DNA of 64,000 bases from Undaria pinnatifida (taxonomy: Eukaryota; Sar; Phaeophyceae; Laminariales; Alariaceae): NCBI GenBank assembly GCA_012845835.1, contig JABAKD010000028.1, forward strand, positions 12,214,717-12,278,716. The letters are read 5' to 3'. A program made the position numbers and the translations under genes. The notes under the pieces are model-generated. The model was given only the letters and a program-made list of their open reading frames with translations, was not told the DNA's origin and ran no database searches. Shown one piece after another: positions 4,544 through 58,921 of this stretch; the first letter of the stretch is position 1; every line of letters begins with the position of its first letter.

Positions 4544-4748
4544 ATGAACGATCTCGATATGATGATGCCGCGGCCCAAGACTTCCGTGCCTAAGCGCAGG
4601 CGGACAGCAAAGTCGCCCTACACGCCCGCCGCGCGCTCCTCCAGCTCCAGCAAGACGGGGCTTGGGCCATCTACGCCCCAGCGTCAGAGCTTCGCCCCGT
4701 CTCCTTCTGCCCTGCTCGCTGGCATTGGCAGCAACGTGCTCTTCCCAG
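4544..4748 (+). CDS. CDC20: CDC20 exon 1 (start codon, basic Ser/Thr-Pro N terminus)
   Basis: Residues 1-68, [20 protein letters not shown] onward. The donor is CCCAG/GTACGA, phase 1. The cluster [12 protein letters not shown] could be a nuclear signal and CDK site together (inference). Confidence 0.85.
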
Positions 4749-7700
4749 GTACGAGTACTTCCACTCTATGATACAGCAGCACAGCGCATGCTGCCAGTAG
4801 TACTGGTGGAATCCGGTGGGAGTCAGGCAGGGCTTTCCTGATACATGCATAAAGACCTATCCGCTTTCTGTCTAGGTACAGACCGCGGTGCAGACACACC
4901 TTGGTATGCACTGCGTGGATGACCTTGGCGACTTTCCTATTATAGCCTGCGAGCAGCCTCCAGCGCGCCGCGTGCGACGCTACTTCTGTCTATGGAAAGT
5001 GCACGCTGCCCTGCCTTGCCCTGCCCTGCCCTGCCCTCTTATCTTTGTGCAAACGGGCATGGCAGAGGAGGAGGGTGTGATATTCGTGGACCGATCCGCT
5101 TTCTGTCTAGTCTAGTGTATAGTCTAGACTAGTCTAAACGTTTTGGGAACTAAGTATTTGTGTATTTGCGTGGGTGTCAAGTTCTTGGCGTTTTTCCGAG
5201 CCTGCAGCCTGCAGCCCGCTGCGTGCAGCGCTTTTCCTGTCTGTAGAAGGTGCGCCCTGCCCTGCCCTGCCCTACCCTCATATCTTTGTTCGAACGGAGG
5301 TTTACTAGGGGGGTGAGGCTTCCCTGGTGTAAGATATCATACGTAGGCCGATCCGCTTTTCTCTCTAGGTACGGACCTTTAGGAAGCTTCCATTTGCGTG
5401 GGTGTCAAAAGTTCTTGGGCGACTTTCCAAGCCTGCAACGCGCGCAGCGTGCAGTGTGCGGCGCTTCTTCTGGTCTGTGGCACGTATCATGCTTGGTACG
5501 CCCTGCCCCGCTCTGCCCTCATACTGGTATCTTTGTTCGAAGTGAATTGGAAGGGGAGGATTCCCTGATGAGCACCTACACCGTTGCGCTTACACACTAC
5601 GTGCAAACGTGCAAACATTTGGGAGGCATGCATGTGACATACGATTGATTGATTACGCGGGTGTGTGCAAAGTTCTGGGCGGTTTCCGAACCTGCAGTCT
5701 GCAGCGTGCGGCGCTTCTTTTATCTGTTGATCGCACACCATGCACCAAGCACCATGCCCTCAGCCTTTATTCGAGCCCTCATATGTTTGCTTGAATTGAT
5801 GATTGAGTTGTACGCATCTGGTATCTGGTGTATGCGAGCCACTAAATAGTACCTGCTAGGCACCGTAAAGAATCTAAGAATCGAGCTACGATTGAGGAAG
5901 TGTGTTACAACGTATATAGACCGATGTGCTTTCTGTACGTGGGTACCGTGACGCACAGACATTGTGAAGCACGACGCATTGTGTGAGGCATTTTTCAATT
6001 TTCGCGTGGTTGTCCGGGTATTTGTTGGCGATTTCTGTCTGTGGTCTGTGGAACGTGTACCTCGCCGTTCCCTACTCTGCCCCCATATCTTTGTTCGAAC
6101 TGACATGGCAGGGGGGTCAGGCTTTCCTGGTGTGTACGTAAAGCGATGAGCATTCTGTCTACTGTAGGTACCGACCTTTTAGGAAGCTGCATTTGTGTGG
6201 GTGTCACAGTTAATGGCGATTTTCCGAGCCTGCAGCCCGCAGCACGCCGCGTGCGGCGCTTCTTCTGTACTGGTATGTAGAACAAACATCCTCTCCCCCA
6301 CCCTGCCCCCTGCCCACTTATCTTTATTCGACTTGAGGTGGGTACGGGGGCTTGTGGCTTCCCTGGGTGTATCACACGAAGACCGATCCACTTTCTCTGT
6401 CTAGACCTTTGGGACGCGTAAAAGTGTGGCAAGCGATCGGTTGCGTGGGTGTAATCTTTCTTGGTGTTTGTCCGATCCTGCGGCGTGCTAGCGCTTCATT
6501 CTGTCTGTAGAACATGTACCCGCGTACCCTTGCTCGGATTGAGGCGTACATACCTTGTGTATGCGAGCTACGAGAGGCCACAGGGAGCGAGCTACGGTTG
6601 CTTGAGGAAGCGTATCATACGTTCATACCTGGAAGACCGATTCGCGTTCTGTCTACAGTGGGTATCATACCGTACGCACGTACAGGCCTTTGGGAAACAT
6701 AAGCGTGCATATGACGGGCGATTTTTGCTTCGGTCTCAAAACTACTACTTATAGGCGATTTTCCGAACCTGCATCAGAGCGTGCAGCGTGCGGCGCTTCT
6801 GTGCCTGTCTATGGAACCTGCGCCATACGCTCTGCCCTTCCCTGCCCTGCCCTTCCTTCTTATCTTGTTCGACTTGACTTGGTATGGGGGTTAGGGTCAG
6901 GGTTAGGGTGTTCAGGGTTCCCTGGTTTGTGTGCGTAAGCCGATCTGCTTGCTGTCCACGTACAGACATTTGGGGGGCATGCATGTTTCAGGCGGTGATT
7001 GATTGCGTGGGTTTCAAAAGTCTCGGCATTCTTCCGAGTTTGCAGCGAGCACCCCCAGCGTGCGACCCTTCCCTGCCCTCATTTTGTGGTTCGAAGGAAT
7101 GAGACATACCTCTACCTGGTGTCAGTACATGCGCGTCGCCAGATATTATAGGGAGTGAGCTCCGATCGAAGCAGTGGCTTAATTCGCGTCGCCCTTGAGG
7201 TATTTTGCGTGCGTATGCACACTTGCTGCGCCTTACCTGTGCTCTTATGGCACATACCTGGTACTGATATACCTGTGGTATGACATACCAGGTACCAGGT
7301 ATTGATATTCTACAGGATACCTGGTGCAGCACATATTGCTGTATCTGCGAACGGGTTACGTTTTTAGATTTGCGTTTTCGTAAACAAGGGAAAGCAACAA
7401 GCAACTGGGACGATCCGGCCCACCTTTCTTATCATACTGCTGCAATGCTGTTCGTAGTCCTGTCACAATGTTGTCGATTGTGCATATCATATTTGATAAG
7501 TGTCCCTGTATTTCTATCTGACACGTGTCCCTGCGCCCACTCGTACACGTACGCACTCGTAGCCCGTAGTTAGTCTGCGCTTGTATGCAGGTAAGGCATG
7601 CTGCGCAATCTCGAATATCGCACTCTCGCTTTCTCCGAACGCTTCCTCCGCGAACACCTCCTGACGCTACAAGTACGATATAGTATGATCGTTCTGTAGG

Positions 7701-10700
7701 GAATAGAGTAAACAAGAATGCGGTTCAGGGCTATTGGCTAATGGCAATGCTAGTAATATTTGAAAATATAGTTCGAGCACATCTTGAGGGCGAAAACCTA
7801 ACGGGTATTAGATGGAGATGTCACCGGTACAGTGTGTACCCCGATTCAAGAGCACCCTGTGACGAGCCGAAGCAGGCGCTCGACACATTGTTCTTGCCTT
7901 AAGTCGAATGTATATGGCTTTTGGTATGGCGGCACATGCCGATTTGACCGCCCTCACGTCCCGCACGCTCTTGTCTTCGGTGCTCTTAAATCGGGTTATC
8001 CGTATCGAATGTATTTGCGGTCATGTAAGCGTAAACCTATACAGCCAGTGACATGTGATACTCGTACTTCGAACTAATATGATACCTAGGTAGACTACGT
8101 ACAACAGTAGCCATTGTATTCGCGATAATGTATGTCGTTTAAACCTGTACAGCCGGTGAAATGTGATACTCGTACTTATAAGTAATATGATACCCAGGTA
8201 GACTACAAGTATAGCAGTAGTAGCGCATAGCGTGCCTGACCATGGCAGGCTAAACAGAACGACGATGTCCGCGCTTACTTACAGGTGTACAGGTGCGGCA
8301 CGCTTTCGGGTATTCGGTACCCTGGTGCATCGTACGATTACGTCTGAATTCAACCATCGTACCCTTTTTCTCATTTCGGGCCGCAGACCTGTCCTCGCCG
8401 TCCATGCCATCCACCCCACGGACGACGACATCCTCCAGGGCCAGCCGGGAACCCGGCACTCCCTCGAGCATGCGCAGCCTATCTCGGACTCCGGTGTCAC
8501 CGCTTAAGAATGGCGAGGTAGGTGCAAGGGGGAGGCTTTTGTGTGTTTGTGAGTTGTGGGGAGCGTTAGCTCTAACGTTGGGTTCGCATGCAGAGTACAC
8601 TGCTGTCTTTTGTGTCTTGATTATGCGCCGCCTTTCAGATGTCTCTCTCCTTCTGACGTTCTATAGCTCTTGTCCCGTCTCTCTGTGTCTCGATCCTCTC
8701 CCTCTCTTATCTCTCATTCTCTCTCTCTCCTCCTCTCTGGCTATCTCTCTGGCTCTCTGGGTATCTTGCCTCTCCCTCGCCATTTCTCCTTCTTTCTCTT
8801 TTCTATCATTTTTTCTCTAACTATGCCTTTTTTTTACTTCTGTGTCTTTCCTTTCCCTCCCTCCATCCCTCCCTTCCTCCCCCCCTCCCTCTTTCCCTCT
8901 CTCATCTCAGAACGACCGCTTCATCCCAAACCGCCAGTCCATGAACCTGGACCTCAGCAACCACATGCTGCTCAACAACAGCAACATCGAGAACGAACCA
9001 CAGCCCGGATCAGATGCCCCCGCTCCCCTACGGCGCGAATTCCAACAAGCTCTTAAGAACACCCTCCTCAACCCCATGTCCGGCGCCACCCCCAAGAGCG
9101 AGCGAGGGGGGGGCTGCAAAGGTGGCAGCCCGCGCGTGCTGTCGTTCACGGAGCGGACACCTCCTCCCCAAGACCGTTTCTCGAACGTACTCAAGGTGAA
9201 CAAACATTAAGTGCCCATACATCTTCAAGAAGTAATACATCTATAGAAACGCGCGGCCAAAGTATCACGCAGCTTGCAAAGGTGAGTACAGGGCCTTAAT
9301 TTTTTTCAACACTTTTATAAAATATGTGTGCCCTTTATATAAAAATACGCACGAGTTGTATGTCGTCTTCCCGAATATCGATAATAATTTTTTTAATTGA
9401 TGGGTATTATGATACTATATATTGTTCATTTGTACATATCGTCTGTCGAATCCCGAAAAAATGTTTCGTTCTTTCACTTCCGCCCTGCTATATGTTATGG
9501 ACGATTTACTCCCCCGTCCTATCTTTAGAGCCTGTATAGTTACGACTGCACCCACCGGTGAATCACTTGGATTATTCACTGAAGTGTTGGACGGTATTTG
9601 CAATACACCAGGCGATTATTGACCCTTTTGAGGCCCGTTTATATTGACCTAAAAAATGGTGAAACCGACGAACGCTACAAACCCAAGGCCAACCGAACCC
9701 ACGACAAAACGGGTTCGCATAAAAAGAAGTGGTTGGATTTTTTTTCCTAGCCTGACCTCTTTCCGTGTGTTAAGTGGGCCTTGGGGTTCTATGACATTCG
9801 TCGGTTTTAATACTATTATTGTATCGTTTTCTATCTATCCGAATGTGGTATTCCGCAAACACCCTAGTACCAGTGTCATTGGCGGAATCAATGAGCAGTG
9901 TGAAAATTCGCAATGGTCGAATATTGAAGAAGCGGTGTATTATATCTCTTCACGCTCTGTCTTTTTTGGCAGGTGCTGCACACGATGAGCAACTCGTCTA
10001 TCGCTCGAGCATCGGTGGGCAGGAGCATCCCCTCCGCCCCCCTGCGCATCCTCGACGCGCCCGATCTCGTGGACGATTACTATCTCAACCTCATCTCCTG
10101 GGGACACAACAACGTGAGTGCTATCGACCATTTTAAGCTATATTTTGCTGCTGCGAAAAAGAGTCCGAGCTAATTCCGAGTGGTTTCTCCCCATGCTGTG
10201 GCTGTTTTTGCTGCTGCAAAAATGAGTTTGTCACGCTCAAAACGGCGTTTGTATATAGTTTCCGAGCGCAAAGAGATTACATGATTGAAGACTGAACGTA
10301 TTAGCATCACCCTGTTGTTTGTGGTACTATTAATAGCTAGCTGGCTAGCTCTAAGGGGAATCGCCGACCTACTGTAAATCCATCATTAGGGTATGCACAC
10401 CCGCCCCCCATAACCACGCGCGATCGGAGTATCACACACAGCCTGCAAAATATGGCTTTTGACGAAATGCTCGATTTCACAGCTGTAGCGTATTTCTAAA
10501 GTTTTAATATAAAATGATCCAACACCCATTTGAAGTTCGTAGGATGTCTTAAAAAGAGAGGGGTGTGGGTTAGGGCTAGGGCAAGGGTTACGATTACCGC
10601 CCGCGACGCGCCTGGTCTGGTGGGTGTACGTACGAACTATTGACGGTACCTCAACCTCATCTCCTGGGGAAACAAAAACGTGAGGGCTATTGTTGGCCGT

Positions 10701-13700
10701 TTTGGGGGCCGTGAATATCTTGATTATAGCATAGCGAGGTTAGGGTTAGGTGGATATCTTGATTATAGTATAGCGACCGTAAAGACGTCGATTGCGATAT
10801 TTTCAAGCTTCTAAGAGTAGCGTGAGCGCGCAGCAGTACGACAAGGACCATGCCGCACCCGTCCCGTACGAGTCTTTGCATTGTTCGCGTCGTCGTTCGG
10901 GCGCCAATGGTATCATCGCCAATATCGCTAACCAGCAGCGGTGGCCGATGCGGAAATCGTCAGTTTTGGTGGTCTGTTTTTCCCTCTGAAGCCCCGTTAA
11001 GGGGATAGTGTTTGACATGTTAAAGCCAGCAAACAGTGCGTGGCATGCTTTGCAGTAGTCTAGTATTAGGGGTCCGTGTCTTGCGTCATCCTTTTGAGGG
11101 CACCTTGCCGCTTTTTCTATTAAACGGTTGGCGTATTCTTTGGATTATATCTAACCCTTGCCTTAGCACTATAACCCTGTGGCGGTCAAACGCAATCACC
11201 CGTTGTACGAGTAGGATTAATTTACAGTTCACCCCTTCCTCTTGTACATCGTGTATCTCAACCATTTTATCGAATACATGGTAAGGCTTTACTGGTTCAA
11301 GAGCTGCTCCCTTGCTATTAATAGCGTCCACACACTTGGAATTAGTGTGCCATTTTTTGCAGTAGTGATTGGGCTGCGTGACCAACTAACCCTTAAAAAA
11401 CTGCATTCCCTTTTCGTCTTTTTTGGGGACAGAGTATTTGGAATATGAGCGTGCGTCGTTGTCTGCAGGAGCAAAAGGACTAATCTGCGCCCTTTTTAGG
11501 GTCAAAATACTTGGAATTAGTGTGCCATTTTTTGCAGTAGTGTATGGGCTGCGTGCCTGACTAACCGTGAAAAAACTACATCCTCTTTTCGTTTGTTTGG
11601 GGACAGAGTACCGGTGGGATGTGAGCCTGTGTCGTGTTTTGCAGGAGCAAAAGGACTAATCGATTCGCAAACGTGCCGTGATGATGCAGGTGCTGGCGGT
11701 TGCTCTAGGACAAGCTGTTTACCTCTGGAATGCTGCGACGGGATCGATCGACCACCTCCTTACGCTTCCCGAGGAAAACGATTTCGTCACCAGGTGCAGT
11801 ATTAATTTCAATAGCCATAAAACGGTATACCTTTTTGTAAAGAATTATTGTAACAACGTTAGCCGTGAGTTAGACAATTTACGCCATATTCTAATAACAT
11901 CAGCTGTGAGTTGGACAAATTTACGCCATTTGCTGTTATTAAATTTTGATCCGTGCTAATATAGGCATTGTAGCACTTTTTGATGGGCATTTTTTTTTTG
12001 TTCTGGATGATCGGACGGACTGCTTAACCCACAAAGATCGGGATGCTGTTATTTTTTGTTGGGAAATTATTTGGGGCGCCGTTATTTTTTTTTGGGAAAT
12101 TATTTTTCTCATATACTTAATGCATGCGATTGAGTGTCCTTCGGGTTGCACTTTCATTTGTCTCTTGAATCAGTCTTTCGATATGGTGTATTACGGGTGT
12201 TATAGAACCTCTCATATCAGGAACCTCGCAAAGAAATGGTCTGCTTCTACCATATAATCCCCCTCTTTTCCGACCACCTACACGACCGCCTAGACCTAGC
12301 ACCATGCGTATAACAAGCTGCTACATATCATTGATCTCACAGCCGAAGTGTATTTGAATATTATTTGTGACCTAAACCTCCTAAAAATCCCCCCCCCCCT
12401 CTTGCTCTCCCTTACTCAAACGCCCCACCAAATATCGAAATCCGCCACATTAATAAACACTTCACGCACAAGATATCACCTCATTATCTTTCCAGAGCCA
12501 TCTATGCCGCTGTGTTTCCCCCCCCCCCCCCCCCCTCCCCCTCCCCCCCCCCCCCTCTCCCCCCCCCCGCCCCCTCCCCCCCCCCCCCCCCCGCTCCAAC
12601 GCCCCCTCTTTCCCGACCACCTACACGATCGCCTAGACCTAGCACCAAGCGTATAACAAACTGCTACATATCATGCGCGCGATCGGAGTATCACACACAG
12701 CTTGCAAAGATGAGTTTCGACGAAATCTTCGATCTCACAGCTGGAGTGTATTTTAATTTTTATAATATCATTGATCTCACAGCCGAAGTGTATTTGAATA
12801 TTATTCGTAACCTACACCTCCTAAAAATCCCCCCCCCCCCCCCCCCCCCCTCTTGCTTTCCCTTACTCAAACGCCCCACCAAACATCGAAATCCGCCACA
12901 TTAATAAACACTTCACGCACAGGATATCACCTCATTATCTTTCGAGAGCCATCCATGCCGCTGTGTTTCGCCCCCCCCCCCGCCTCGAACGCCCCCTTCT
13001 TCCCCATCACCCGCACCTTCGCCTAGACCTAGCACCACACGTATAACAATCCCCTCACCTAAAGCCGTTCCCCCCCCCCCCCCCCCCCGCCCCCACCCCC
13101 CCCCGCCCCCACCCCCCACCCTTCCCCCCCCCCCAACACATCCCAACCCCACCCCCACGAACACTCCACCCTCTCTTTACTCACTGATTGCACGAATTAC
13201 CCCAGGATATACATGATAAACTGATGTATTATTTCCAAAAATGTCACATTTATCCCCTCAAAATAATGTATAGCTTCCAGGCACATATTGAGCTGCCCCC
13301 CCCCCACCCCCCCCGCCCCCAATAATATACTGGTGCCAAAACCGTCAGATTTATCCCCTCGAAAGAATTTATAGCTTACATGCACAAATTGCCCCTTTCC
13401 CCCCCCCCCCCCCCCCGCCCCCCTCCAAACCCGCTCGCTTTTGATCAAAACCAGGCCCCCCTTTCCCTTCACAGCTGTCAGATTTTGTCCCCCTCAGAAA
13501 CGGGTTTTATAGTTTCCGCGCACAGACTGACTAAAATCATCCTGTTGACCCTGATAGCTACACTGTAGTTGTAAGGGGAGTCGCCGACCTATATCCTTAA
13601 TGAGGACACACAACTCGTAATGCGCGCGATCGGAGTATCACACACAGCTTGCAAAGATGAGTTTCGACGAAATCTTCGATCTCACAGCTGGAGTGTATTT

Positions 13701-14826
13701 TAATTTTTATAATAATATAGCAAGTGTCGCTAGCAGGTGCAAAACTACGTAGTACCACATGCTACGAAAGTATCAAGTAGTAATACCGCCTTTTGGCTAG
13801 AGCAATTAATTGTGGCGGACAAGGCTCATCGTTGCAGTTCGTACACGTCCACGATGATACCTCTGCAGCCCGCGTTGCTCGAGGCGCCCTCTTTTTGTTT
13901 TACCTGACATATTTGGTTTTTTTGTAGGGTTTTAGGCTGTTTTTTAGTGTTTTTAGTTTTTTTTTGCTTCGAATCACGAGAGGGCGTCGACCCAACCCAG
14001 CCCTAACCCCGGCGCTAAGGCTCCGACCCGCGCGCTGCTTCGGCGCGCGTTTTAAAGAATCTGGTGAAAGTGTGTGGACCACCTCAAAATCGAAATCTAT
14101 TTGGTACTTTATCCGGTATGTTTTGTGGCTTGAGAGCGCCGCCAAGGATTACTACTGGTTTGCTTTCTTTGTGTGGCCGATGATTTGAATGAAGTCAATT
14201 TATTTTGATTTTTTTCCCTGTCAAGTCCAGTAGGGGTTATATAATAGTTGATCTCACCGATGTGTGTACGAGTAGCTCCAAACCAAACTGATTGTTCTCT
14301 GCTCCACGCACGCTACCCTCGAATGCCGAACGAATGCATCGCGACTAGCGCCCAACTACCGTGGTAATTTTCACACGCTATTATATTAATAGGAGCTGAT
14401 ATACAGTTAGTGCGCAGTAGGTTTTACACTATGTAAGAGCTAAATTTTTACAGTGTACAGTAGAGTAGACTATAGTCCCTCTATAGCGCCGGTTGAGTAG
14501 TGCCGGTTGGCCGCTATAGTGGCGGTGAAATCGCTTGGCACAGATAGGAACAACCAGTTGTGGCGACATGGGTAAGTAGCGCCAGTTGTCGTTACAGTGC
14601 TGTTTTTTCCGTCTGGCACACCAAGGCGCTGTAGATGGACCACTACTGCTGTAACACGTACTACCTTAGTATCAGTGCACAGAATGATTATTATGGAAAA
14701 TCGCCCTATATGCGGGTTCTACTAACCATGTCATACAATAATATCGTGCTTACTATTATAATAATATCTCCATGCAGGTTTTACAGTCGTATCAGTGCAC
14801 AGAATGATTATTATGGAAAATCGTCC

Positions 14827-14905
<79 letters not shown>

Positions 14906-17900
14906 GACCCTGACATCATCCAGGGGAGTCGCCGACCTAAATCTTTCAAGAGGATCAAATATATAACACGCGCGAACGGCCTTCCGTAAATGTTGTGCAA
15001 CTACTGCTGTATATTAGTGAAACATAGATGTACCACGCAGCTTGCAAAGTTGAGTTTCAACCATTCAATCGGTCGCACTCGCAGCCAACGTTTTTCAATT
15101 TTTTTTGCAAAATATAAGTAACAGACTAACCTCTTCGTTCGTTGTTTTTGGTTACGCTTGTGATGGTCTGCTGTGATTCAGCGTTGAGTGGATGGACAGG
15201 GACGGTGGGAGCCTTCTCGCTGTGGGCACGAATCACTGTGCTATTCAGCTGTGGGATGCGGCTAAGCTCGCTCAGGTATGTATGTACTTCGAAGAATACA
15301 TTGGTTTCTTGTTTCCAGGGCGTTTGACGGGTCGGGTCGCCTCTCGCGGGTCGGGTCGGGTCGGGCTTGGATCGAATCGTGGTACTTGGAAACCTCTTGG
15401 CCCGAACCGTTCTGATCCGTGAGAGTCCGAACTACCTCTTGACCCGACCCGAGTCGACCCGCGAGATTTTGGGAACCTCCTGACCCGACCCGCGGAATGG
15501 GTCATGACCCGTGAAAAGCTCTGCTTGTTTCAGTTGTGTGTACAGCATGCGGCAGCACTTGAAATAATTGGCAGTCAAGAAGTTCAGGGTCGAGTTTTGA
15601 GACGAAAGGAACATGGCTTTTGTTGAACTGAACACAGTGAAGGAAGGACGCACCCTGTGTTCCGTAATATTTCCAGCTTGGTGAGAAACAAGAGATTCTT
15701 AACTGGTGTCGCACACTGCTGTATTGTCTCATGTACGACTTCCTTCAGCCACTTTTTTTGTGTTTTTTTATGATCTGTTCGTGGGGTGTTGCTCTACTAC
15801 GAGTGCAGAGACAACGGATTAGTATGGCCACGAGTTAATGTGAGAATAACGACATGAACGCCTGGTATGCCCTGTTAATAGTGGTGTAATATAAGGGGAC
15901 AAGGGACAAGGGAAGGCAGTCGTGACTACGGCTTGTCCTGACGGTCGTCGAGTATAGAAAGCCTCTTGCGGGTTCACTCACCCCTGTAGAACTACAGCAA
16001 AGTATTTGGGGACACAATTGCCTTGGAATTAGTCTAATGGGGTATCACAAAAAAAAAAAAAAAAAAAACAGTTCAAGTAAAAGTTTTGACGCAATTGCCT
16101 TGGAATTAGTCTAATGGGGTATCACAAAAAAAAAAAAAAAACAGTTCAAGAAAAAGTTTTGACGTCAATCAAGTAAGCAATGCATGAATAATGCACCAGA
16201 TAAAAGTGGTATTAACTTGTCACTAATGGACCTGCGCTGTGCGTTGCACGTGCTTTTCGTATATCTTGACAGCGACTCAAGGTCGATCATGCCTACGGTA
16301 GAGGATCTAGATTCATTTAGTACGTTCCAGCATTTTTTTCCCGATGTAAATTGGAACCACCTGCAAAAAGATGTATCTCGTTTTCGGGGACATTTTACTT
16401 GGGATAATTGTGGGAAAAAATGTGAGATCCTAAATTAAGTAGATGTATTCTTTGAGCACTCTACGTACGACTACTTGTCTGAAACGACTGTTAACGCCGT
16501 TATGACTGGAAACCCGTTTTTGTGGACAACTTACTTGGATTTTGCATAGGGACGGGTTTTGGGGCTCTGAAGGGGTTAATAGCTCACGTTGTCGCTGTCA
16601 TGGGAGCTGAAGGACACGCCACTGCTGGATTGCGAATACAATCGGGTTAACTTGGCTCGCGACATGTATTCAATACATGGAACTGTGGTGAGCTTGATAT
16701 TTATTTTTCCCCATCCGCCGGAGGATAAATAAAATAAAAAAAAGGCTAATATAATTGTGACACGCTTGTTACGCGTCTATCCTTTTTGGTGCATTTATCT
16801 GTCAGCTTCGGATCATGACGGGACACTCGGCGCGCGTGGGAACACTTGCCTGGAAGAGACACGTCCTGTGCTCCGGCTCTCGCGACAGCAGCATCGTGCA
16901 GCACGACGTTAGGATCCCAAACCACAAGATTGCTACATTTGCCGGACACGATCAAGAGGTGGGAGGCGTTTGTTACGGTAGCAGCTGGGGGGGGGCGGGG
17001 AGCGCACCTGAAAGTTAGGGTTAGGGTTAGGGTTAGGAAACAGCTATTCCGTGCAGCACGACGTTAGGATCCCAAACCACACTAACTCTACGTATGTTTG
17101 CCTTTTTTTATTTTCCATTTTTTTATTTTTTATTTTTTTATTTACGTATTTCTATATACACATTTCTATATTTATTATAAAAATTAAAATACACTCCAGC
17201 TGTGAGATCGAAGATTTCGTCGAAACTCATCTTTGCAAGCTGTGTGTGATACTCCGATCGCGCGCATTACGAGTTGTGTGTCCTCATTAAGGATATAGGT
17301 CGGCGACTCCCCTTACAACTACAGTGTAGCTATCAGGGTCAACAGGATGATTTTAGTCAGTCTGTGCGCGGAAACTATAAAACCCGTTATATATTGGGCA
17401 GACGACAGGAAGCGGTAATACCGCGACCATTCCGCGCCACCGTGCGGTACAGCAGAATACGCATAGATTTTTGGCCCCGATCCGCGACGCTGATTGGTCA
17501 ACTCAGCCTCGTACCGGTTTTTGACACCAACCCCTTGCGATAGGTACATCGTATCGCGGCTTTTCAGCTCGACCGTCACCGCTTTCTGACGTGACCCATA
17601 CCGCTTTCTGTCGGAAAATAAATATGCCATGCGGACCGACTTTGCTCATGGCTCTTCACGGCGCGCACCCTTTCAAATTCCGGCCGAGCGTCAACCGTGG
17701 GCGCCATGTCATGTAGACTGCATAGCTACAAGACTACATGTAGAAGACCATGTAGAAGACTACAATGTAATATGCTCCCGATTATTTTAAGGTCCACATT
17801 TCAACAGTCGAAAAAGCCGTTGTTTCGTACATAGCCAGTAGTGTACGATACGACTACAAATGGCGCCATCACTTAAGGATATAAATATATATATTGCCCG

Positions 17901-20900
17901 AGGCTCGGTTATTATTCTTATTAGTTTTCATTGGGGCATCTTTTATTGTAGGTTCTAGTGTATGGGTAGTGTACTATAGGGTATTTTCCGGGCATCTCAC
18001 GTGAGCACAAGTTCTTATAACTACCAAGTTTAAGTGGTGGCGTCCTCTCCCTCCGTGGATTTCCACAGAATGCGGTGTAGGAATACGCAAGGCGGACGAG
18101 AGAGCGGTGTGTGTGCATCGTCAGGGTCGATGATGGCGCCATCGGTAGCGAGGGTTTTAACAGAATGCGGTGTGCGAATGCACAAGGCAGACGCGAGGTG
18201 GTGTACATGTGGGCCAAGAGGGTCGTGCGCGTGTAGCTGGACTGTCACTTCCCCTTGTCCCATTGTCCCACCCCTTTCTCCGCCATTCATACATACATAC
18301 ATGTACGTGGGGTGTGCAAGCTGTCTATGGTTGAGCAGGGTCGTGCGCGTGCAGGTGGACTGTCACTCCCCCTTGTCCCTTTGTCCCACCCCTTTCTCCG
18401 CCATTCATACATACATACGTGTAAGTGGGGTGTGCGAGCTGTTTATGGTTGAGCAGCGGTTCGTGCTGTGTGCCGAAGGGGTGTTGCGATGATTGCTCTG
18501 AAGGGATCCGAAATATGACGGCGCGCAGTTCTATGCATGCTACATGACGTAGCGCCTATGGTTGATATTCGGTCCGAATTTGTAAGGGTGCGGAGCGTGA
18601 AGAGTCTCGGGCAAAGTCGGTCCGCATGGTATACTTTCCGACAGAAAGCGGTATGGGTCACGTCAGAAAACGGTGACGGCCGAGATGAGAAGCCGCGATA
18701 CGATGTACCGTAAGGGGTTGATGTCAAAACCCGGTACGAGGCTGAGTTGACCATTCAGCGTCGCGGATCGGGGTAAAAAACCTAGGTGTATTCTGCTGTA
18801 CCACACGGTGGCGCGGAATGGTTGCGGTATACCGCTTTCTGTCGTCTGCCTTTATATGTTAATATCCCGCAGATGGGAAAAAATAAAGCTCAAGCATTCC
18901 GGCGATATTGGGTGAGAGTAATCAATCATTGGTTGGCGTTTATCGTAGTTGATCAACCCTGCCAGGCAGGCATGCTTCGGCCCTAAACGCGCTACAAACA
19001 CTACTTTTTAGTTTTTTCATCCTCCGGCGGATGGGGGAAAATAAAAGGTCACCCTTCCCACGTTCTTTCATACACGTCGTGTGTCATTCTAACTCAGTCG
19101 TATTCGCAATCAAGCTGGTTTTCTGGCGTGTTCTTCAGTTCCCGCGATAGCGATAGCGCGAGCTGTCCCTACCGGCGGTCCCCGTTACTACTCCGGCAGC
19201 GCAAGCTGCCACTGTACCGAATGCGTGAGTATGTCGACCCCACCTGACCCCTGGGGTAATGTGGGACTTGCGCAAGCTCACCCACTAACAAAACCCCCGG
19301 CCATGAGAAAACAGCCTTCGACTGGACTTGGTTAGTCCAGTTACGGTCCACCCTACCCATTCGGGCGTTGGTCCTCGTACAAACAATACCTTGGCCCTAC
19401 TGTAGAGGCATTCTGTGATACGGTGATAGGGTAGCACCTAGCTACAATCAGTTTATCAGTCAGGGTATCAGTCAGAGTATCAATCAGAGTATCATATCAG
19501 TCAGTTTATCAGTCAGTTCATCAGCAAGTTTATCAGCCAGTTTATCAGTCAGATTATCAGTCAGTTTATCAGTGGGCTTTTATTATGGCTCCTCGTTTGG
19601 GGAGCCTTTTACCTTGCCCAAAAACGAACCCTGGAAAAAAATGGAAAATGCATCCCCATGAGTAGTCCGATGGCCTCGAGAGGTACGGCTGCACTCGCCG
19701 TAGTCCGCGGGAACCGCCGCCCCCCCCCGCCAGTTTGTGTGATTTGCAGACCGATAGTGCAAAACGATTTTGATGAGGCCTTCCGAAGATATCGAGTAGA
19801 CGGTAGCGATATCGAGTAGACGGTAGCGATATCGAGTAGACGGTAGCGATATCGAGTAGACGGTAGCGATATCGATTAGACGATATCGATATCGAGGAGC
19901 TCCCCATTTTTAGTGGGGGAACATGATCACCCAGAAACATTGTTGGCTCAAACGTGCTATTACTCCTATCGTAGAAAGCCTCCATAGCACGCGCTAACTC
20001 CGCTTGGTTCGACCCAGGGGCTGTTTTGTCCGTGGTATTTTCCACGTTTCATACATTATTGGCCCGCAAGAAACTCAGCCTGAGATTTACGGGAACGTAA
20101 GAAAATCGGGAGCGGTTACACTAAAGCTAGTGTGGAACACGGCCTTTCTTAACCCCTTCCTTAACCGGTTTGGAGCCCGGGTATAGCGACGAAATAGCAA
20201 CCAAAGAAATACACGACAATTGCGACGTTATCCACCGTCTCCGTCTCCGTCAGTGCGCGGCAGCAAGTGGTAGGAATGGGATAAAGTCGTGGTATCGTAT
20301 CTTGTTGTGTTATTGCGGTTCGGACGAGCTCGGTTCGGATACGAAATGTATCATCACCAATAGCCTAAAGAAGCAGTCAGCGTATTGTCGAAGGGCCGAT
20401 GCTGTAACCGTCACTGTTTTTTGTCAACTTTCCCCGCTATAAGGAAGTCCCAAACGGAGTTAAACAAGAATAGCTTGGGCCGGTAGTATACTAAATTTAG
20501 TGTTGAACACACCCTTAAGTAATTAAGAAACCTAGCCTATGCCTGTAGTATACTAAAGTTAGTGTTGAACACACCGTTTGGTAAATAAGAAACCTAGCCT
20601 ATGCCTGTAGTATGCTAAAGTTGGTGTTGAACACACCCTTTAGTAAGTAAGAAACCTAGCCTGCGCCAATAGTACACTAAATTTAGTGTTGAACACACCC
20701 TTTAGTAAATAAGAAATCTAGCCTGGGCCTGTAGTATACTAAACTTAGTGTTGAACGTACTTTCTTTCAAATAAGAAACCTAGCCTGGGCCTGTAGTATA
20801 CTAAATTTAGTGTTGAGCATACCCCTTCTGAATAAGAAACCTAGCCTGAGCCGGTGACAACATGTCTTATTGAGGGACCTTTGCGGTATTACTAATACAA

Positions 20901-26232: not shown

Positions 26233-26404
26233 TTTGCACTTTGCTTTCGAAGTTGTATTATATTAATGCGCAACCCCCCGCCCGGAGAGGGGGGTTGGAG
26301 ATGGGAATACCCCGGGGCTGCCCCGCCGGCAACCCCACGCTAACATCCGTATACACGAGTCAACTCCCAACCCAACTGGCGACATCGAACTCTCGACGCC
26401 AGCC
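26233..26404 (-). repeat. Retroelement terminal repeat B2
   Basis: 172 bp, the same as 27163-27334. Includes the GC-rich palindromic stretch around cccggagaggggggttggag and ccccggggctgccccgccgg. Confidence 0.92.
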
Positions 26405-26950: not shown

Positions 26951-27164
26951 GAACTTGAACCAGTCTGTATCACACCTTGGACCTGTAAGCTCTGACTCTG
27001 CTCCCCTACGCGCTCCGCGTGCAGGTCGTCGCCTACACAGCTGGGCCAGGTGTGCCCAATGCTATCGCTCATAAGACCATGAATTACCGCATTGATCTGA
27101 TTGGTCAAACTTCTTACGTACGTACAAAACCCATATTTTCTCATACTTCGATAATATTCTGCTT
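26951..27164 (-). repeat. Retroelement internal repeat A2
   Basis: 214 bp, matching 31093-31306 with one visible difference. It abuts B1 directly at 27163/27164, the arrangement expected from a circular intermediate. Confidence 0.92.
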
Positions 27165-27334
27165 TGCACTTTGCTTTCGAAGTTGTATTATATTAATGCG
27201 CAACCCCCCGCCCGGAGAGGGGGGTTGGAGATGGGAATACCCCGGGGCTGCCCCGCCGGCAACCCCACGCTAACATCCGTATACACGAGTCAACTCCCAA
27301 CCCAACTGGCGACATCGAACTCTCGACGCCAGCC
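27163..27334 (-). repeat. Retroelement internal repeat B1
   Basis: Same 172 bp sequence as B2, lying just downstream (minus strand) of the recombinase region. A one- to two-base TT/AA overlap is shared at the B1-A2 junction and at the outer end of A1, and may be the recombination core. Confidence 0.9.
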
Positions 27335-30270: not shown

Positions 30271-30277
30271 GAGGCGG

Positions 30278-44750: not shown

Positions 44751-44755
44751 CATGG

Positions 44756-46515: not shown

Positions 46516-46759
46516 CCGGGTATCTACCCGAGCATGACTTGAACAATCAGGGGTGGCACAGGGGTACCGCAGAGTATATACCCTACTAGCCCCCCCCCGT
46601 CAAGGTATTATCTTTACGTGATAATACGGTAGCTCTCTCCGTTACAGGAACTCCCGCTGGTGGATGTTTGCAACTGTCGCCAAGTGTGTGCATTGGTGGG
46701 AAGCAGGTAACACATATGACCATATTAAACTGTCAGGGAAAGTCTTCGCCATTCTCCTG

Positions 46760-47040
46760 ACAGAAATCGCTCTCAATAATCGTCATTGGCCTTGCGGGAG
46801 TGGCAGCAAGCAGCTATGATGGGTGAAATCACAGCTACCAGGAAAAACGCTTCCCATCCTCGGCACAGAAATCGTTACCATCATTGCCATCGGCCTTGCA
46901 CGGGGGGGGGGGGGGGGGGGGGGGAAGCCGCAATGAATGAAGAGTAACATATTCTTAATAGAACGTTGGCAGGTAACATGTGCACCATTGTCGTGATAGC
47001 CATCACTCTCGTCATCGTCATCAGCCGTGTGCGGGGGGGG
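46760..47040 (-). repeat. Decayed copies of the 45501 exon start
   Basis: Three minus-strand segments resemble the acceptor and first codons of the 45274-45501 exon (AAG then GCCGATGACGATGA). One (46820-46905) still reads ADGNDGNDFCAEDGKR. Each is preceded by or embedded in long G/C runs. Confidence 0.6.
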
Positions 47041-49080: not shown

Positions 49081-49089
49081 GAGATCGGG

Positions 49090-51119: not shown

Positions 51120-51185
51120 CATCAACGCAGCAGCAGCAATAGCAGCAGCAGCAGCAATAGCAGCAGCAGCAGCAGCAGCAGAGTC
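51120..51185 (+). repeat. CAG trinucleotide repeat
   Basis: caacgcagcagcagcaatag followed by about 15 AGC/CAG triplets. Confidence 0.9.
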
Positions 51186-52174: not shown

Positions 52175-55100
52175 CTGTTGATGAAAAAAAGCGGCGAACA
52201 GAGCGAACAGAGGAAACGACGCGAGGGGTGGTTTTCAACATACTTTCCACTTGAGCTTGCAACACGCTATGTGTATAGACTATGTGCTCTTCATGAAACA
52301 GTGTTGGGACATAAACCTCGTACCTCTGAGTAATACAATAATTCTACCGAATTACCCCAATAAACTAGTCATAACCACCACCCGCCCCACCCCCCCGAAC
52401 CCAACCCAACCTTGTCAACGTCCATCACTTGCTCGCCCCCCCCTCGTGAAGGAAACGCCTTCGCCGACTTTATCGAACCAGCTCACAGACTTGTCCTCCC
52501 CGAACCCCCTGCCCGCACCCCCCCCCACCCTTGTACCATTACAGCAGGGGTCCCCCGGCAAGGCGGTGGTGTGTGAGAGCAATATGACCGCCTTATAGAG
52601 GAAAGCCGCATTACTCATTCCGGGTTATGAGTGCAATTATTAAGTATTCCCCAGTAGCGCCAAGCGATTTTGACCGCCTTATATCGAGATACCGCTTTAT
52701 TGGGGGACCCGTAATGTGGTCGATACTGGTATCACCTTTCTGGGCCCCTTACTAAGGAAGGGTATCATTAAATATTTTGCCGAACCAGCTGACAGACCAC
52801 AGGCCGCATTCACACGTGATGCGATCACTGAAATACCATCACACAGAAAAGACAAACTATACACGTCACCCATCCATGCCCCCCAACCCCCCCCCTCTCT
52901 ATCAGAACCTATACCAATCGCCCATACACCCTCCCCCCACCCATGAAAACCCCCTCTCGCCCCCCCAAAACTTTTCATCATCCATTCCCTTCCCCCCCGC
53001 CAAGGGAATGCCTTTGAAGACTTCATCGAACCAGCTAACATTCGATCACCGAATCACCGTAAAACAGATAAGGAGAGGACCATTAGAGTTCGGGAACCGA
53101 ACCAAGAGTAATGTGTCTATTGTTGCGAGAGAATTACGTAGTAAACGCACGCCAGTCATCCATCCATTCCCCCCAAACAAAAGGGCAAAAGCTACCACGC
53201 ATATACCTTGATTTCTAGTTTCAGTACGAATACAAACTGCGAAAGCATGGGTCATTTATCGATCCTTTAGTTCTTTCGGATGCCAAGCAAAAGGCGTCAC
53301 AAAAGTTACCCTCCGGGATAACTAACTCGATAACTAACTCGCTTATGGCAGCCAAGCGTCCATAGCGACGTTGCTTTCTGATTTTTCGATGTCGGCTCTT
53401 CCTATCATCGTGACGCACACGTCACCAAGGGCAGCATTCACCCACGAACGGGGAACGTGAGCTGGGTTTAGATCTTCGTGAGACAGGTTAGTCGTACCCG
53501 ACCCCACCCCTCGTCCCCGTCATTTCATCATTCATCACCTGCTGGGTCCCTTCGCGAAGGAAATGCCTTTGAAGACTTTATCAAACCAGCTCGCAGACTT
53601 CTCGGCAGCAGCAGGGTCCTCGTCCTCCTCGTCCTCCTCCTCCTCCAGGAAAGAATCTACGATCGTGCCAGCGATGGGCGAGTCCTCCGAGAAGCGAACG
53701 GAGGAGGAAGCCGAGGTGCGACGGCTTATAGAAGAATTCCGCACCTGTGCTCAGTCAAGCGAGTCGATGATCAAGACGTATTTTGGTTCACGGTGTACGA
53801 CAGCAGTGGGCAGTTAGTGTATAACAGTTACAACGTTAGAGTTAGCGCAAGCCGGGGGGGGTGCGTTAGAGTTCATCTCGGCGAACAAGAGTGTCTAACT
53901 CGATGCGTAAAGAAAATTACTCCGTACGGCATTAGAAGGTCCGTTAGCACAGTGTGAACGCGGAGGGGGCGGGGGGGGGGGGGGGGTAAGTGGGTGTCGG
54001 GGTTAACCACCTCGCAAACTAAAGTGTCGATGTCGATGCCTAAAGCAATACCGGTACCATTTAATCAGCACATCACTTCCCGCCCATGGGCAAAAATCGA
54101 CGCCAGTCGACGAGGGGAGAAAATGCTGAATTGTTCTCGCGATAAAAACGAAGGTGTGTAACTTAATGGGGAGGGGAGGGGGAACCTGCTTAGTCACCTC
54201 GGGTCTGAGTTATGTCTAGGGAGGGACAAGGAGGAAGAAAAAAAGCGAAAATAACGGGTGGGATGAGCAAGAAATAAAAAAAAGGGTTATTACATGGTTT
54301 GAACCGTGTACCGTCTCTGATACCGGTATAAACATCTACCTGGTACCAGGTTACAATCTATGATACCGGCATAATCATCTACCGCCTATGATATCGTTGC
54401 AACCATCCGCCATCTACAATACAACCATGACCATTGGTCTCTGGTAGTGGATCCACCCATCACCCACCCACTGTTGTCGCACACCAACCTAACTCAATTT
54501 ATCCCATCCCATCCCCTCCCATCCCATCCCATCCCATCCCATCCCAACCCGACCCAACCCATCCCAATCCAACCCAACCCATCCCAACCCAACAAAACCC
54601 AACCCAACCTAACCCAACCCAACCCAACCCAACCCAACCCAACCCAACCCAACCCAACCCAACCCCGCCATTTATGATACCGGTCTAATATCATGTACCA
54701 TCACCGTCTAACGCCGACAGGGCGATACGACTGCTTGTTGGCTGTCACACCAGACCTGTACCCTCCTTTTCTCCCTCTTGCCTGACTGTCCTTCATGTTC
54801 GCCTCCGAGAATTCCTTCGCACGAGCGCGACAACAAGCAAAAGCGGACGTCGCGGCGGGGACAAGCAAAGAAACAAACGACACGTAGCTGTCAGCGTCCA
54901 CGTGCTTCACTTCAGCATGAGGCGAAACCATCGCATCACTTTCCACGTTGTCCTCGAGTATTACACGACTGCGTTGCGACGATTGGGGAGTACCGCCTGA
55001 TTTCTCTGGGGCTCTCTTCTCTCCCTTTGAGGAGCTGGATCTATGATACTCACGTCACCCAAACGCGACTAAGAGAAAAATAAAATAAAAAATGAAATGG

Positions 55101-58100
55101 ACAACCAGCCCGATGAACAATAATGGCATGGCCGAGGAATAACGAGGCATACAACCACTACTCTTGTGAAAGTAAAGCGACATTGGGTATAGTATGTTAG
55201 TCCAATAATCATATTAATAGTATGTTCGTATAGCAGCCTCGTCAACCAGAAAAACAACACCAAAAAAAGGTACACCCTATCGTAGCACACAACACGCCCC
55301 ATCCCGAAAATAATCCTTCTACCCTCACATGCCGTCGGCGCTCCGCAAACAAGGAGGCCATACATATCTCCATTAGCACCAAAAAATAACACAAAAAACT
55401 GTCAAAGGTAATCAGAACGTCAAAACCCAACGCCCCCCTCTCCCCATCCCCATAAAATATGCCTACTGACCCTAAAAACCCCCCAACACCGCACTTAGCC
55501 CTAACCTTGACACCTCATTTGCCGCCGGCGCTCCGCAGACAAGGAGGCCATGCGTACGTCTCTCCAGTACCACAAAAAAAACAATACGCCCACAAACCAA
55601 CAAACCGCCAACGTCATCAAAATGCCAAAACCAACGCTCCACCCTCCCCATCCCGAAAATACGCCTCCTCCACCAGCACCCTCACCTGCCGCCGGCGCTC
55701 CGCAGACAACGAGGACATACGCCTCTCCAGCAGCACCGCGCTCAACGTGCGTCTCACCCGCGTGCCCCTCCACCACCTCTGCAAGGTGCCTGCCGCCGCT
55801 ACCCTCACCGCCACATTTGCCTCCGCCGCCATCGCCGCCGCTGCCGCCGCCGCTTCAGCTGCTGCAGCTGCTGCAGCTGCTGCCGCCTCGTACTCTTGTT
55901 GCTCGCGCAGCTCGACTGCTCTCTCCTTAAGCCTTGCGGCTTCGGCTCTCGATGCCTCCAACGCAGCTTTCGCTTGCTGCTCGGCGAGCCGTTTTTCACT
56001 CTCCGCCCGAGCCACCTCAAACCTGTGTAAGTCGATCCAGTCCATAACGCATCACACATCATTTAAATGGCAGCAACCAAAAAAAGGTACACATTATATG
56101 TGTTGACCCAAAAACAGGTACAGCCTCAAATCAAGTACAAAATTCATCGAACTAAGCACCCGATTGGCCGAAAGGACATCGCACCTGTTTCTAACGTGGA
56201 ACGACCCCGGTACACCTGTATGCGGTTGCTACATATGCCTGGGCTGAAACTTATTTTTTTGCTCGTATTTTGGGTTTTCAGGCTTAATCACTTCCCTACA
56301 GTGTCAATTTTGTTTCCCTGCTGAACACGCTGCTGTTTCATCCTTTCGCTCTTCCAACCTCTTCGGCTATTTCTTCATTATTTTTCCACTACTCAACCAT
56401 TGCCGACGACATGGGGTAGATCATAAGGGAGAAGGGAGCATGAATAGCCCACTCGGGGAAAAAAAAAAACATGACTGCGCAGTAAACTGAGGGAGGCTCT
56501 ATAAGGCAGTAGTCTTTGGTGAACCTTAGGCCCCGCGGGTTTTAGTCTGCACCTGTTTTTGACTCTAAGGTATACCTTTTAGGGAACAGGTACACCTTTT
56601 TTTGGCGGTTGCCCCAATATAAACTGCTTTCTCTGGTATTTCCTGCAAACCCAAGCATCATGCCTTAACGCTAAGAAACACGTATTTTAAAGACCATGAT
56701 GTCTTGACCTCCAAAATGTTGTAAGTGTTACCGCGTACCGCAAGTTACTCGTTGGCTATGAACCACCAACGCCCCCCCTCTCCAAAGTAACTCGTTGGCG
56801 CTGTCATCCATAAGCAAGAGAGTAGGCACAACGTGCCGAAGTCCGTTTTACGAGCGGTTGTTGGAAGGATGCAGTTCACCCTTCATGCGACTCGCCGAAC
56901 ACCTCACGGCGCTTCGCGCTTGGTGCTAACAATGTCTGCCTGGTTAGTGAAAACCCGACGTGCTCCGTCCCGGCATAGTAGGGATGCGAGAGTCCATGGT
57001 TATACGACTACGGCCATGCACAAACTGAGTACAACCCCCCCCCTCCCCCCCCAAGTCCAGTCTACAGCAAGCGGTCATGTTGTGGTACCGGTACATGCAC
57101 ATATTGCAACTAACGTGCCTTTGATATGAATACGATAGAGAGAGTTTTGTTCAATATTTCCACCCATTCCCTACCGACGCAACAGGCATTTAGCCGACTC
57201 ACCAGGTAACAGCCCGCTAGAATTGCTTTGACGCATGACACACACCTGGTAAGATATGGGACCATATTTCATAGCCCCCAACAACAACAACAACGTTCAA
57301 TATCCAAACGGTGTGTACATTTCCAGTCCAGAGTAGAAACAGTTACAATTTTCGCTGGTCATCACCTGCGCGCCGAAGCCGCAGCTCTCCCCATCTCCCC
57401 CCTCTGCCATGCCTGCAGCGTGATCGCCGCTTGGTTTCGATTGCGATGGCGCATCCACCGCCGGGAAGCTCGGGCAAGTGTGCTCGCGGACCTCCGGCGC
57501 CTCTTGATCAGGGGCGTGGTTTGCCTCATGACAGTCACCATGCGGTACCACGCCTGCCGACGGTGAGCACAGGAGACGAAAATAAACAACAAAACCCGTC
57601 AGTCTTGGTTAATGAACAAGCAGTAGACGTTTCTTTGATGACGAGACAACCGCTGTGGCTGAGAGTGGCTCAGCCGCCAAATCTGAAATTTGTCTGTCAA
57701 TATCATAGTGTGCTTACACCAACACCGACAACAACGTAAACAGCAGCAACAGCAACAACAACAGCAGCAACCAACACCAACACCAACACCAACACCAACA
57801 CCAACACCAACATCAACACCACCACCACCAACACCACCAGCACCAACACCAACACCACCACCACCAACACCATCACCACCACCACCACCACCACCACCAC
57901 CACCACCACCACCACCAACAGCAACAACAACAATAGCAACAACAACACACCAACACCAACACCACCAACACCACAACACCAACACCAACAACACCGACAC
58001 CAATAACACCGACACCAACACCAACAACACTGAAGACCTAACGCAGCTTGCAAAACACAGTTTTCGGCGAAATCCTCTACCAGGTACCTCTGTCATATTG

Positions 58101-58921
58101 TTTTTACAACAAAAAGCAATCAAGGCGTTTTCAATCCACCTGCATTGCCACAGACGCATCAAGGTGCAAGCTCTCCCGGTGTATCCGAGGCCTCCTGTTA
58201 AGAAGTTGCGCCACAAAGGCGACGTTGTATAGGTGAGCCTTAGTGTTGATGTGGCGAGGCCGAATGAGAGGAGCCAATCCGATCCCCTCAGCACCCGAAA
58301 TGACGAGACAGGCGCGGCGGAACTGCGCTCGCTTCTCGTCCTCATCGGGCCAGTCGATCTCGTCGCCCTTGAAGTTATCGTTCAGCTCCTGCGGCGTGTG
58401 GGGGTATTAGAAAGCACCGAGGCGAGAAAATGCAAGCAGGGTTAACAGAAGCAAAGTGTTTGGGAGCGCCGCACTTCCCTGGAGGGCAAAAGCTAATCGG
58501 TCTCGGCACCATCACAACTACCTACGTAGCCTTGTGTTTGGCCACATAACGTATGTGGTAGGGTAAACCTTACTATATACCAGTATGGCCTTGAATTTCT
58601 TCGGTCGCATATAACATGTGTGTGTTGTCTTCGCATCAAAAACCGCTATTTTTACCCCAGACACCATCACACCCCGTGCCAGTCCTGCTTGAGTCTCATC
58701 CTAGAGAGACAACGCAATTAGGTGATAGACTGGGAGAGAGAAAACCGATATCATCGCACCTTACTCCCGGAAAACATCAAAGGTATAACGTAGACTGCAC
58801 GCGGAACAAACACACAACACAGGCTATCTGCTGGCTGCTGACCTTCATGAGGGAGACGTAGCACCTTCCGTCGGACAGATCTTCGCCAAAGTTAGACACG
58901 CGCCTCTCGCTACCACCCCAC
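51922..58921 (-). CDS. Calponin-homology and IQ-motif protein, 3' seven exons (5' end not found)
   Basis: Exons, minus strand: 58921-58843, 58388-58140, 57553-57366, 56022-55686, 55068-54967 (tentative), 53744-53539, 52174-51922. All are GT-AG with matching phases, giving about 470 residues to the stop. Residues 1-90 resemble the second half of a fimbrin-type CH domain (RVSNFGEDLSDGRCYVSLMK, RACLVISGAEGIG, HINTKAHLYNVAFVAQLLN). Four IQ motifs follow: VAMQAWYRMVTVMR (built across a splice junction), AAITLQAWQRGEMGR, AAAGTLQRWWRGTRVRR and AAMIIQRWQRGQAEIR. Between them lie an Ala/Glu coiled coil, a Ser-rich and an acidic stretch, and SWFDKVFKGISF. Likely role: a calmodulin-regulated actin- or microtubule-associated protein (inference). 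A CH1 domain is expected upstream. Confidence 0.78.
52420..53045 (-). repeat. Two decayed copies of the 53539 exon end
   Basis: 52430-52500 (minus reads SVSWFDKVGEGVSFTRGG) and 52985-53045 repeat the 3' end and donor region of the exon at 53539 (SASWFDKVFKGISFAKGPS). A shorter trace lies at 52770-52800. Spacing is about 550 bp. Confidence 0.85.
52560..52720 (+). repeat. R8 dispersed repeat copy 1
   Basis: gagagcaatatgaccgcctt, then ccgcattact, taagtattccccag, gcgattttgaccgccttata, tattgggggac. Inverted copy at 58955-59115. Confidence 0.8.
53539..53744 (-). CDS. CH/IQ gene exon (Ser-rich, acidic, SWFDKVFKGISF)
   Basis: Acceptor GAGCACAG/GTG, phase 0; donor CCCAGCAG/GTGATG, phase 2. Encodes VRNSSISRRTSASSSVRFSE, then an acidic run EEEEDEEDEDP and the SWFDKVFKGISFAKGPS helix. 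Confidence 0.72.
54480..54668 (+). repeat. AACCC/ATCCC minisatellite
   Basis: About 35 five-base units, first CATCC-type, then AACCC-type (cccaacccaacccaaccc). This resembles but does not equal a telomeric repeat. Confidence 0.95.
54967..55068 (-). CDS. Tentative CH/IQ gene exon
   Basis: The strong acceptor ATTTTTCTCTTAG/TCG opens phase 0 (SRLGDVSIIDPAPQRERREP), closed by a possible GTGTAA donor that keeps phase. An overlapping frame (GGTPQSSQRSRVILEDNVES, continuing to about 54750) is also open and could be the true exon. The choice needs transcripts. Confidence 0.35.
55320..55560 (-). repeat. Two tandem decayed copies of the 55686 exon end and donor
   Basis: tgccgtcggcgctccgcaaa at 55330 and ttgccgccggcgctccgcag at 55518 copy the last codons (SAERRRQ) and donor area at 55686, with the following CCACCC/CCCATCC sequence. 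The donor is altered to ATGAGG or ATGTGAGG in the copies. Period is about 170-190 bp. Confidence 0.88.
55686..56022 (-). CDS. CH/IQ gene exon (coiled coil, poly-Ala, IQ3)
   Basis: Acceptor TTACACAG/G completes the Arg codon from the previous exon. Encodes FEVARAESEKRLAEQQAKAA, a long Glu/Ala coiled coil with an Ala-rich run, AAAGTLQRWWRGTRVRR (IQ) and SLSAERRRQ before GTGAGG. Confidence 0.82.
56740..57030 (-). repeat. R2 dispersed repeat copy 3 (inverted)
   Basis: Matches 43900-44140 inverted: taactcgttggcgctgtcat, ggcacaacgtgccgaagtcc, tgcagttcacccttcatgcg, acgtgctccgtcccggcata. It lies in a CH/IQ gene intron. Confidence 0.82.
57366..57553 (-). CDS. CH/IQ gene exon (IQ1 end and IQ2)
   Basis: Acceptor GTCGGCAG/GCG, phase 0; donor GCGCAG/GTGATG, phase 2. 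Encodes AWYRMVTVMRQTTPLIKRRR and NQAAITLQAWQRGEMGRAAA. Joined to the preceding exon it completes IQ motif 1. Confidence 0.85.
57725..57965 (+). repeat. CAACAC/CAC microsatellite
   Basis: AAC, CAACAC and CAC triplet runs, including about 17 CAC/ACC triplets around 57880-57920. Long Pro/Thr or Val/Gly frames here are artefacts. Confidence 0.93.
58140..58388 (-). CDS. CH/IQ gene exon (C-terminal half of CH domain)
   Basis: Acceptor CGCCGCAG/GAG and donor ATGCAG/GTGGAT, both phase 0. Encodes ELNDNFKGDEIDWPDEDEKR, FRRACLVISGAEGIG, then NVAFVAQLLN, the conserved last helix of fimbrin CH domains (LNLAFVANLFN). Confidence 0.85.
58843..58921 (-). CDS. CH/IQ gene exon (CH domain core)
   Basis: Encodes WGGSERRVSNFGEDLSDGRC and YVSLMK before donor ATGAAG/GTCAGC. 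It aligns with the VNNFSxDIxDGxAYxxLL segment of CH domains. The acceptor CATCATCAG needs a phase 2 upstream exon, which I could not find. Confidence 0.75.

Follow-up and report, generated by a model that had tools for sequence, protein, structure and literature searches.

Does this genome habitually copy the edges of its exons, splice sites included, into the adjoining introns? The question is raised by the window, the whole stretch of 64,000 nucleotides of Undaria pinnatifida DNA analysed here. The original prediction named eight exon edges in it (five in a CDC20 gene, two donors of a CH/IQ gene, and an acceptor at 45501) that have duplicates in the neighboring intron. It proposed a genome-wide habit of duplication at exon edges that lengthens introns and supplies raw alternative exons.

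Exon-edge copies in the window

Junctions were examined with a probe of 80 bases around the junction, compared in direct orientation and under a complexity filter with the 2 kb on either side. A match was accepted when its alignment extended 10 or more bases past the junction on both sides and scored at least 48. The features of the CDC20 gene are as follows.

4544..25698, + strand: CDC20 gene, 11 exons, rebuilt model
4544-4748, 8387-8517, 8911-9195, 9973-10113, 11690-11793, 15182-15275, + strand: exons 1-6
16806-16958, 20965-21207, 22535-22588, 23455-23585, 25521-25698, + strand: exons 7-11
10081..10124, + strand: exon 4 donor edge, source of a copy (33 exon and 11 intron bases; donor at 10113)
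10647..10690, + strand: decayed copy of the exon 4 donor edge, GT retained (BLAST)
11322..11661, + strand: 175-base tandem pair wholly within intron 4 (BLAST 83.7%)
16895..16926, + strand: exon 7 interior, source of a copy, stopping short of the donor at 16958
17050..17081, + strand: exact 32-base copy of the exon 7 interior, in intron 7
21197..21342, + strand: tandem pair of period 72-73 across the exon 8 donor at 21207 (TRF)
22357..22423, + strand: decayed copy of the edge of the exon 9 acceptor at 22535 (probe)
23576..24043, + strand: 53-base tandem array across the exon 10 donor at 23585, with decayed relics downstream

The rebuilt 11-exon model gives a stop-free spliced product of 572 aa, which matches the CDC20/Fizzy profile PF24807 at 421 bits and human CDC20 (chain 5g04_R) with an E value of 9e-118. 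From exon 3 onward the alignment to the human protein runs unbroken over the exon joins, so at the protein level those junctions are well supported.

Of the 20 junctions of CDC20, four match in the probe: the donors of exons 4, 8, and 10 and the acceptor of exon 9. The exon 4 edge and its copy are 90.9% identical over 44 bases (probe score 72); the copy is a 44-base piece lying 566 bases downstream and is not arranged head-to-tail with its source. The exon 8 donor copies stand at 81% by BLAST, with a probe score of 62. The exon 9 acceptor has its copy about 140 bases upstream (probe score 65, against a null maximum of 31), and a second, older copy near 22202 was seen by eye only. At exon 10, TRF finds 3.0 copies over 23576-23732, the probe score is 80, and more BLAST pairs extend up to 24043.

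Two further CDC20 repeats were considered as junction cases and set aside. The exon 7 copy derives from 16895-16926, which is exon interior, short of the exon end at 16958. Just ahead of this copy lies a run of TTAGGG repeats (17014-17081 for run and copy together), and the two are perhaps the product of a single repair event in which telomeric repeats were added along with a piece templated nearby. The 11322-11661 pair had been a candidate for the exon 5 acceptor, but use of the upstream acceptor leads to an in-frame stop, and the protein joins at 11690. The pair is purely intronic, an instance of the same process seen at the junctions.

The CH/IQ gene and the 45501 acceptor, on the opposite strand, contribute the following features.

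55297..55737, - strand: three copies across the CH/IQ donor 55686 (BLAST pairs 73-82%)
52415..53603, - strand: edge of the CH/IQ donor 53539 with decayed copies at 52973-53036 and 52415-52495 (BLAST 78%)
46741..47033, - strand: three decayed copies of the exon edge starting at 45501 (alignment scores against a null)

The exons of the CH/IQ gene come from an exon predictor and open frames, and its protein is an assembled composite, with an IQ match barely above the curated cut-off and a CH match below it. Two of its 14 exon ends match in the probe, namely donors 55686 (score 86.5) and 53539 (score 63.5); the 14 include both ends of exon 45500-45334, which may belong to another gene. By eye, an additional copy of the 53539 donor lies near 52790. 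The acceptor at 45501 fails the junction-spanning probe because little intron is shared with the copies. The edge copies themselves reach scores of 50, 50, and 55; in the null, the 99% quantile coincides with the maximum at 37.5.

Seven of the eight edges named by the original prediction are therefore duplicated as described, the exception being CDC20 exon 7, where only exon interior was copied. The probe scores in the window run from 62 to 86.5, compared with at most 31 in reversed-sequence controls, and the pairs within 2 kb number 67 direct and 2 inverted. Scores so far above the controls, together with the rarity of inverted copies, make chance an unlikely cause; the visible divergence of the copies likewise makes assembly duplicates unlikely. 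The copies appear to lie within existing introns, the CDC20 protein homology running continuously over the old junctions.

The window also holds repeats of other kinds. Identical direct repeats of 172 bases at 26233-26404 and 27163-27334, 930 bases apart, resemble the two ends of a small, recent mobile element. Inspection by eye found broken frames resembling a retroelement polyprotein, with an RNase H-like stretch, at 28062-30766 on the - strand. It also indicated a dispersed repeat family that carries long C-rich tracts and recurs at three or more places (12259-13714, 17190-17400, and 61000-62000).

Junction-spanning copies across the assembly

The assembly comprises 511 Mb in 68 contigs. 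Exon pieces of kinesin, tRNA-synthetase, and TCP-1 genes were located in it by profile search, and 30 loci were picked with their introns unseen, comprising 29 kinesin loci and a tRNA-synthetase gene (L038). One of the 30, L033, is on the window's contig, 3.8 Mb from the window. A chaperonin gene, L039, was added later as an independent locus. Two kinesin matches with identical scores, at C2:16034374-16037637 and 16063521-16066784, lie 29,147 bases apart and reflect either recent tandem duplication of the gene or a duplicate made in assembly. The EsV-1-7 cysteine-motif family is large in brown algae; the assembly has 2151 candidates for it, and all 150 that were scored exceed the cut-off, many of them on one contig (C30), which agrees with a brown-algal host.

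Homology alone places 34 introns at the 30 loci, and an exon predictor, with the homologous exon pieces as its training set, extends the number to 171. The gene models are thus predictions. The antisense control of the predictor gave 30 exons versus 190 in sense before retraining and 55 versus 193 after, so that perhaps 15-28% of the predicted exons are false. Among the 30 better-scoring homology-anchored introns it is exact on 21 in its final form, and was exact on 25 before retraining. Junctions of exons scoring below 5, points over a 3-mer complexity limit, and sequence shared between loci were dropped, leaving 248 of 278 junctions, 557 of 768 intron-interior points, and 127 of 154 exon-interior points.

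In this filtered set, a local, same-orientation, decayed copy spans 27 of the 248 junctions (10.9%), two of the 27 being supplied by a low-complexity array at L014. Local direct copies are found at 55 of the 557 intron-interior points (9.9%) and at 2 of the 127 exon-interior points. Inverted copies number 0, 2, and 0 for junctions, intron interiors, and exon interiors, respectively. The difference between junctions and exon interiors has a p value of 0.0005 (computed before the repeat mask, 27/262 versus 2/142). In the unfiltered homology-anchored set of 34 introns, a score of at least 46 is reached at 7 of the 68 junctions and at 39 of the 396 points inside introns; the reversed control gave 0 and 7, respectively.

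The part of the original prediction that spoke of a genome-wide habit is supported: one or more junction-spanning copies occur at 19 of the 30 loci, and at L039, 3 of 24 exon ends match. To summarize, about one splice junction in ten in this genome bears an old, decaying tandem copy in the adjoining intron. The junction matches number 27 both before and after masking of sequence common to several loci, and no dispersed mobile element, i.e., the same sequence at unrelated loci, was encountered in the 324 kb compared, a comparison that low-copy families could escape. That the copies are an artefact of assembly is highly improbable, given that they are diverged, mostly 70-90% identical, and that the pattern recurs at unrelated loci.

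Is duplication then aimed at junctions? Such targeting might come about through transcription or splicing intermediates, or through the AGGT-like microhomology of donors and acceptors. Per base, junctions show no excess over intron interiors (10.9% versus 9.9%, p 0.71). This equality had been taken to refute any excess, a conclusion dropped once events rather than bases were counted: one duplication yields two covered intron stretches and one working junction, so equal per-base rates can mask an excess of events. Counted by family, within introns between confident exons, 17 of 31 families span a junction versus the 7.3-8.7 expected from uniform placement (P 6e-5 to 9e-4); 21 of 52 families lie outside these introns and are uncounted. 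Under a second null, in which either copy is counted, the figures are 21 of 49 families versus 12.1 expected (P 0.003), or versus 14.4 expected with a detection factor of 1.3 (P 0.02). Reading of L039 gives three junction families and two intronic ones, whereas homology-anchored introns alone give five of each, too few to tell among 29 introns. Tandem duplications simulated with a frozen exon are detected about equally at the two kinds of site (junction/intron ratio 0.64-0.88), and another simulation gives a ratio, derived from counts, of about 0.9 to 1.3.

The proposed excess at exon edges is accordingly absent per base and about twofold by family, and the latter is likely but not secure. The same twofold excess could arise if intron interiors were diluted by transposons that came in later than the duplications. 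In addition, the exon share of the copies ranges widely, from 10 to 97 bases, which speaks against targeting. We consider targeting to splice junctions unlikely, if still the foremost of the alternatives. The broader idea that junctions attract tandem duplication in brown algae, so that junction copying is a main engine of their long introns and of new splice sites, is equally unlikely.

Probable tandem duplication and decay of the inner copy

The pattern is probably explained by untargeted local tandem duplication that is tolerated when it crosses a single junction; with decay of the inner copy, the outcome is a longer intron. The proposed steps are as follows. Stretches of about 60-500 bases would be duplicated head-to-tail often, with no clear regard for splice sites. 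Copies internal to exons would be purged by selection, and those internal to introns would be neutral. A duplication crossing a junction would be tolerated because the exon body keeps its connection with the exon-proximal junction; an additional donor would end up downstream and an additional acceptor upstream, both within the intron. Splicing at the exon-proximal site would preserve the protein. The inner copy, its splice site included, would then decay at about the neutral rate, and the intron would stay longer. To judge from protein homology, the exon-proximal site is the one presumably used in the mRNA. We infer the mutational mechanism of the duplication; selection is the probable reason for the rarity of copies in exons, and introns would undergo net growth over time.

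Orientation and position are consistent with this account. Pairs within 2 kb number 138 direct and 7 inverted in the 30 loci; with the window added the totals are 205 and 9, or 163 and 4 without sequence shared between loci. Side and divergence were analyzed with L014 excluded and L039 added. In all 28 locus cases and all 6 window cases, the copy is on the intron side of the junction from which it derives; since both matches of the L014 array are on the exon side, the total is 34 of 36.

Divergence bears on the frozen state of the exon. In the 27 usable cases of the 28 at the loci, the exon-derived part of the copies has diverged by 0.182, versus 0.227 for the intron-derived part. The corrected exon/intron ratio is 0.77 at the loci (95% interval 0.62-0.95) and 0.66 in the window (0.55-0.75; 4 of 6 cases usable), that is, between 1 and the 0.5 expected for a frozen exon. 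The exon-derived part is the less diverged, presumably because only one of its copies is free to change. Among the locus pairs, 120 of 138 are 70-90% identical and 9 are above 90%; much of the duplication activity is therefore not recent.

Contiguity fits less simply. By BLAST, a head-to-tail arrangement is seen at the loci in 4 of 21 families that span junctions and in 16 of 31 that do not; the window figures are 3 of 5 and 4 of 21, respectively. The locus junction families are thus less often contiguous than simulated tandem duplications, whose contiguous share is 0.38-0.87. The hardest fit for tandem duplication is L030, in which the exon part is identical at 46 of 48 bases, yet of 68 intron bases that could align just 13 do. 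Both L030 and the scarcity of head-to-tail families might be due to deletions at a later time or to gene conversion of the copy by the exon.

Short, non-adjacent copies, such as those of CDC20 exon 4, of CDC20 exon 7 beside TTAGGG, and of L030, might instead suggest copy-and-paste repair, in which templated insertion or template switching places short local copies in introns. A process of this kind would be expected to duplicate exon interiors as often as exon edges, yet exon interiors are seldom copied (2/127), inverted copies are almost absent, and 34 of 36 copies sit on the intron side of their own junction. It had been entertained for the non-adjacent copies and was dropped, as longer alignments show decayed homology extending into the intron in most cases. 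As a general explanation we hold it to be quite improbable, and retain untargeted tandem duplication with decay.

Intron length, splice sites, and known systems

The expectation that the process lengthens introns is upheld in part. Of the bases in the 171 predicted introns, 9.1% belong to local direct pairs, dispersed repeats included. Their share increases with intron length (rho 0.44), from 1-2% below 600 bp to 17% above 2 kb, a trend to be read with the caveat that short introns offer less room for a pair.

The expectation that the copies supply raw alternative exons is not supported as a rule. The splice dinucleotide is retained in 18 of 27 copies, near the survival of about 0.58 predicted from a mean identity near 0.76 with both bases free to decay. 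Of the 17 testable intact copies, 6 are in frame, which is the chance level, and 1 is also open. Thus, junction copying rarely leaves a usable new exon, and maintenance of the copies as alternative splice sites or exons is very improbable as their general explanation, even though two loci have features that invite it. At L030 (+ strand, oriented 3005-3053), a 48-base in-frame, stop-free copy of a kinesin exon start has its own AG and GTAAGA and is the best candidate for a new cassette exon. At L013 (- strand, oriented 7868-8311), a donor junction is present four times at 111-base spacing, each GGAG|GTGAGCC, and the frame is open as far as the fourth donor.

For the idea that introns can originate by tandem duplication, Rogers (1989), Gao and Lynch (2009), and Hellsten (2011) are reportedly cited.

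Four published accounts are relevant. In the potato RdRp gene, a tandem duplication crossing one intron-exon boundary produced a new intron, confirmed by RNA-seq (Ma, Lan and Niu 2016, PMC4974935). The Undaria duplications resemble it in crossing one boundary, splice signals included, but differ in that the copy stays in the old intron and decays, and in affecting about one junction in ten. A 2012 review terms tandem duplication of gene segments with splice-like sites prevalent (PMC3443670); in its model an exonic AGGT segment is duplicated and a new intron results, whereas here an existing junction is duplicated and its intron lengthened. In Drosophila populations, tandem duplication of a few hundred bases is described as frequent and as often taking in exonic sequence (Lehmann 2010, PMC2891723). 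That work concerns novel intron positions, unlike the decayed copies of existing junctions described here. Among brown algae, Ectocarpus has a high intron content and long introns, with an autosomal median of 524 bp, and its tandem repeats are fairly evenly distributed over the genome (PMC12477816); the text of that study considered here treats mainly transposons and leaves junction-spanning copies unmentioned.

Among the matches listed in a literature search, as represented by titles and abstract openings, none deals with genome-wide junction-spanning copies in brown algae. Tandem duplication is already known, then, to give rise to new introns in general, and one well-described case shows it crossing a splice junction. 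Judging by those matches, what seems to be new is the frequency, about one junction in ten, and that the old intron is merely lengthened. If the rate of about 10% holds in annotated brown-algal genomes, whose introns are known to be long, junction-spanning copies would offer a source of intron growth and decoy splice sites that can be counted and dated, a prospect tempered by the neutral and untargeted look of the process. They would also make it testable how splicing picks the real junction over a near copy a few hundred bases off.
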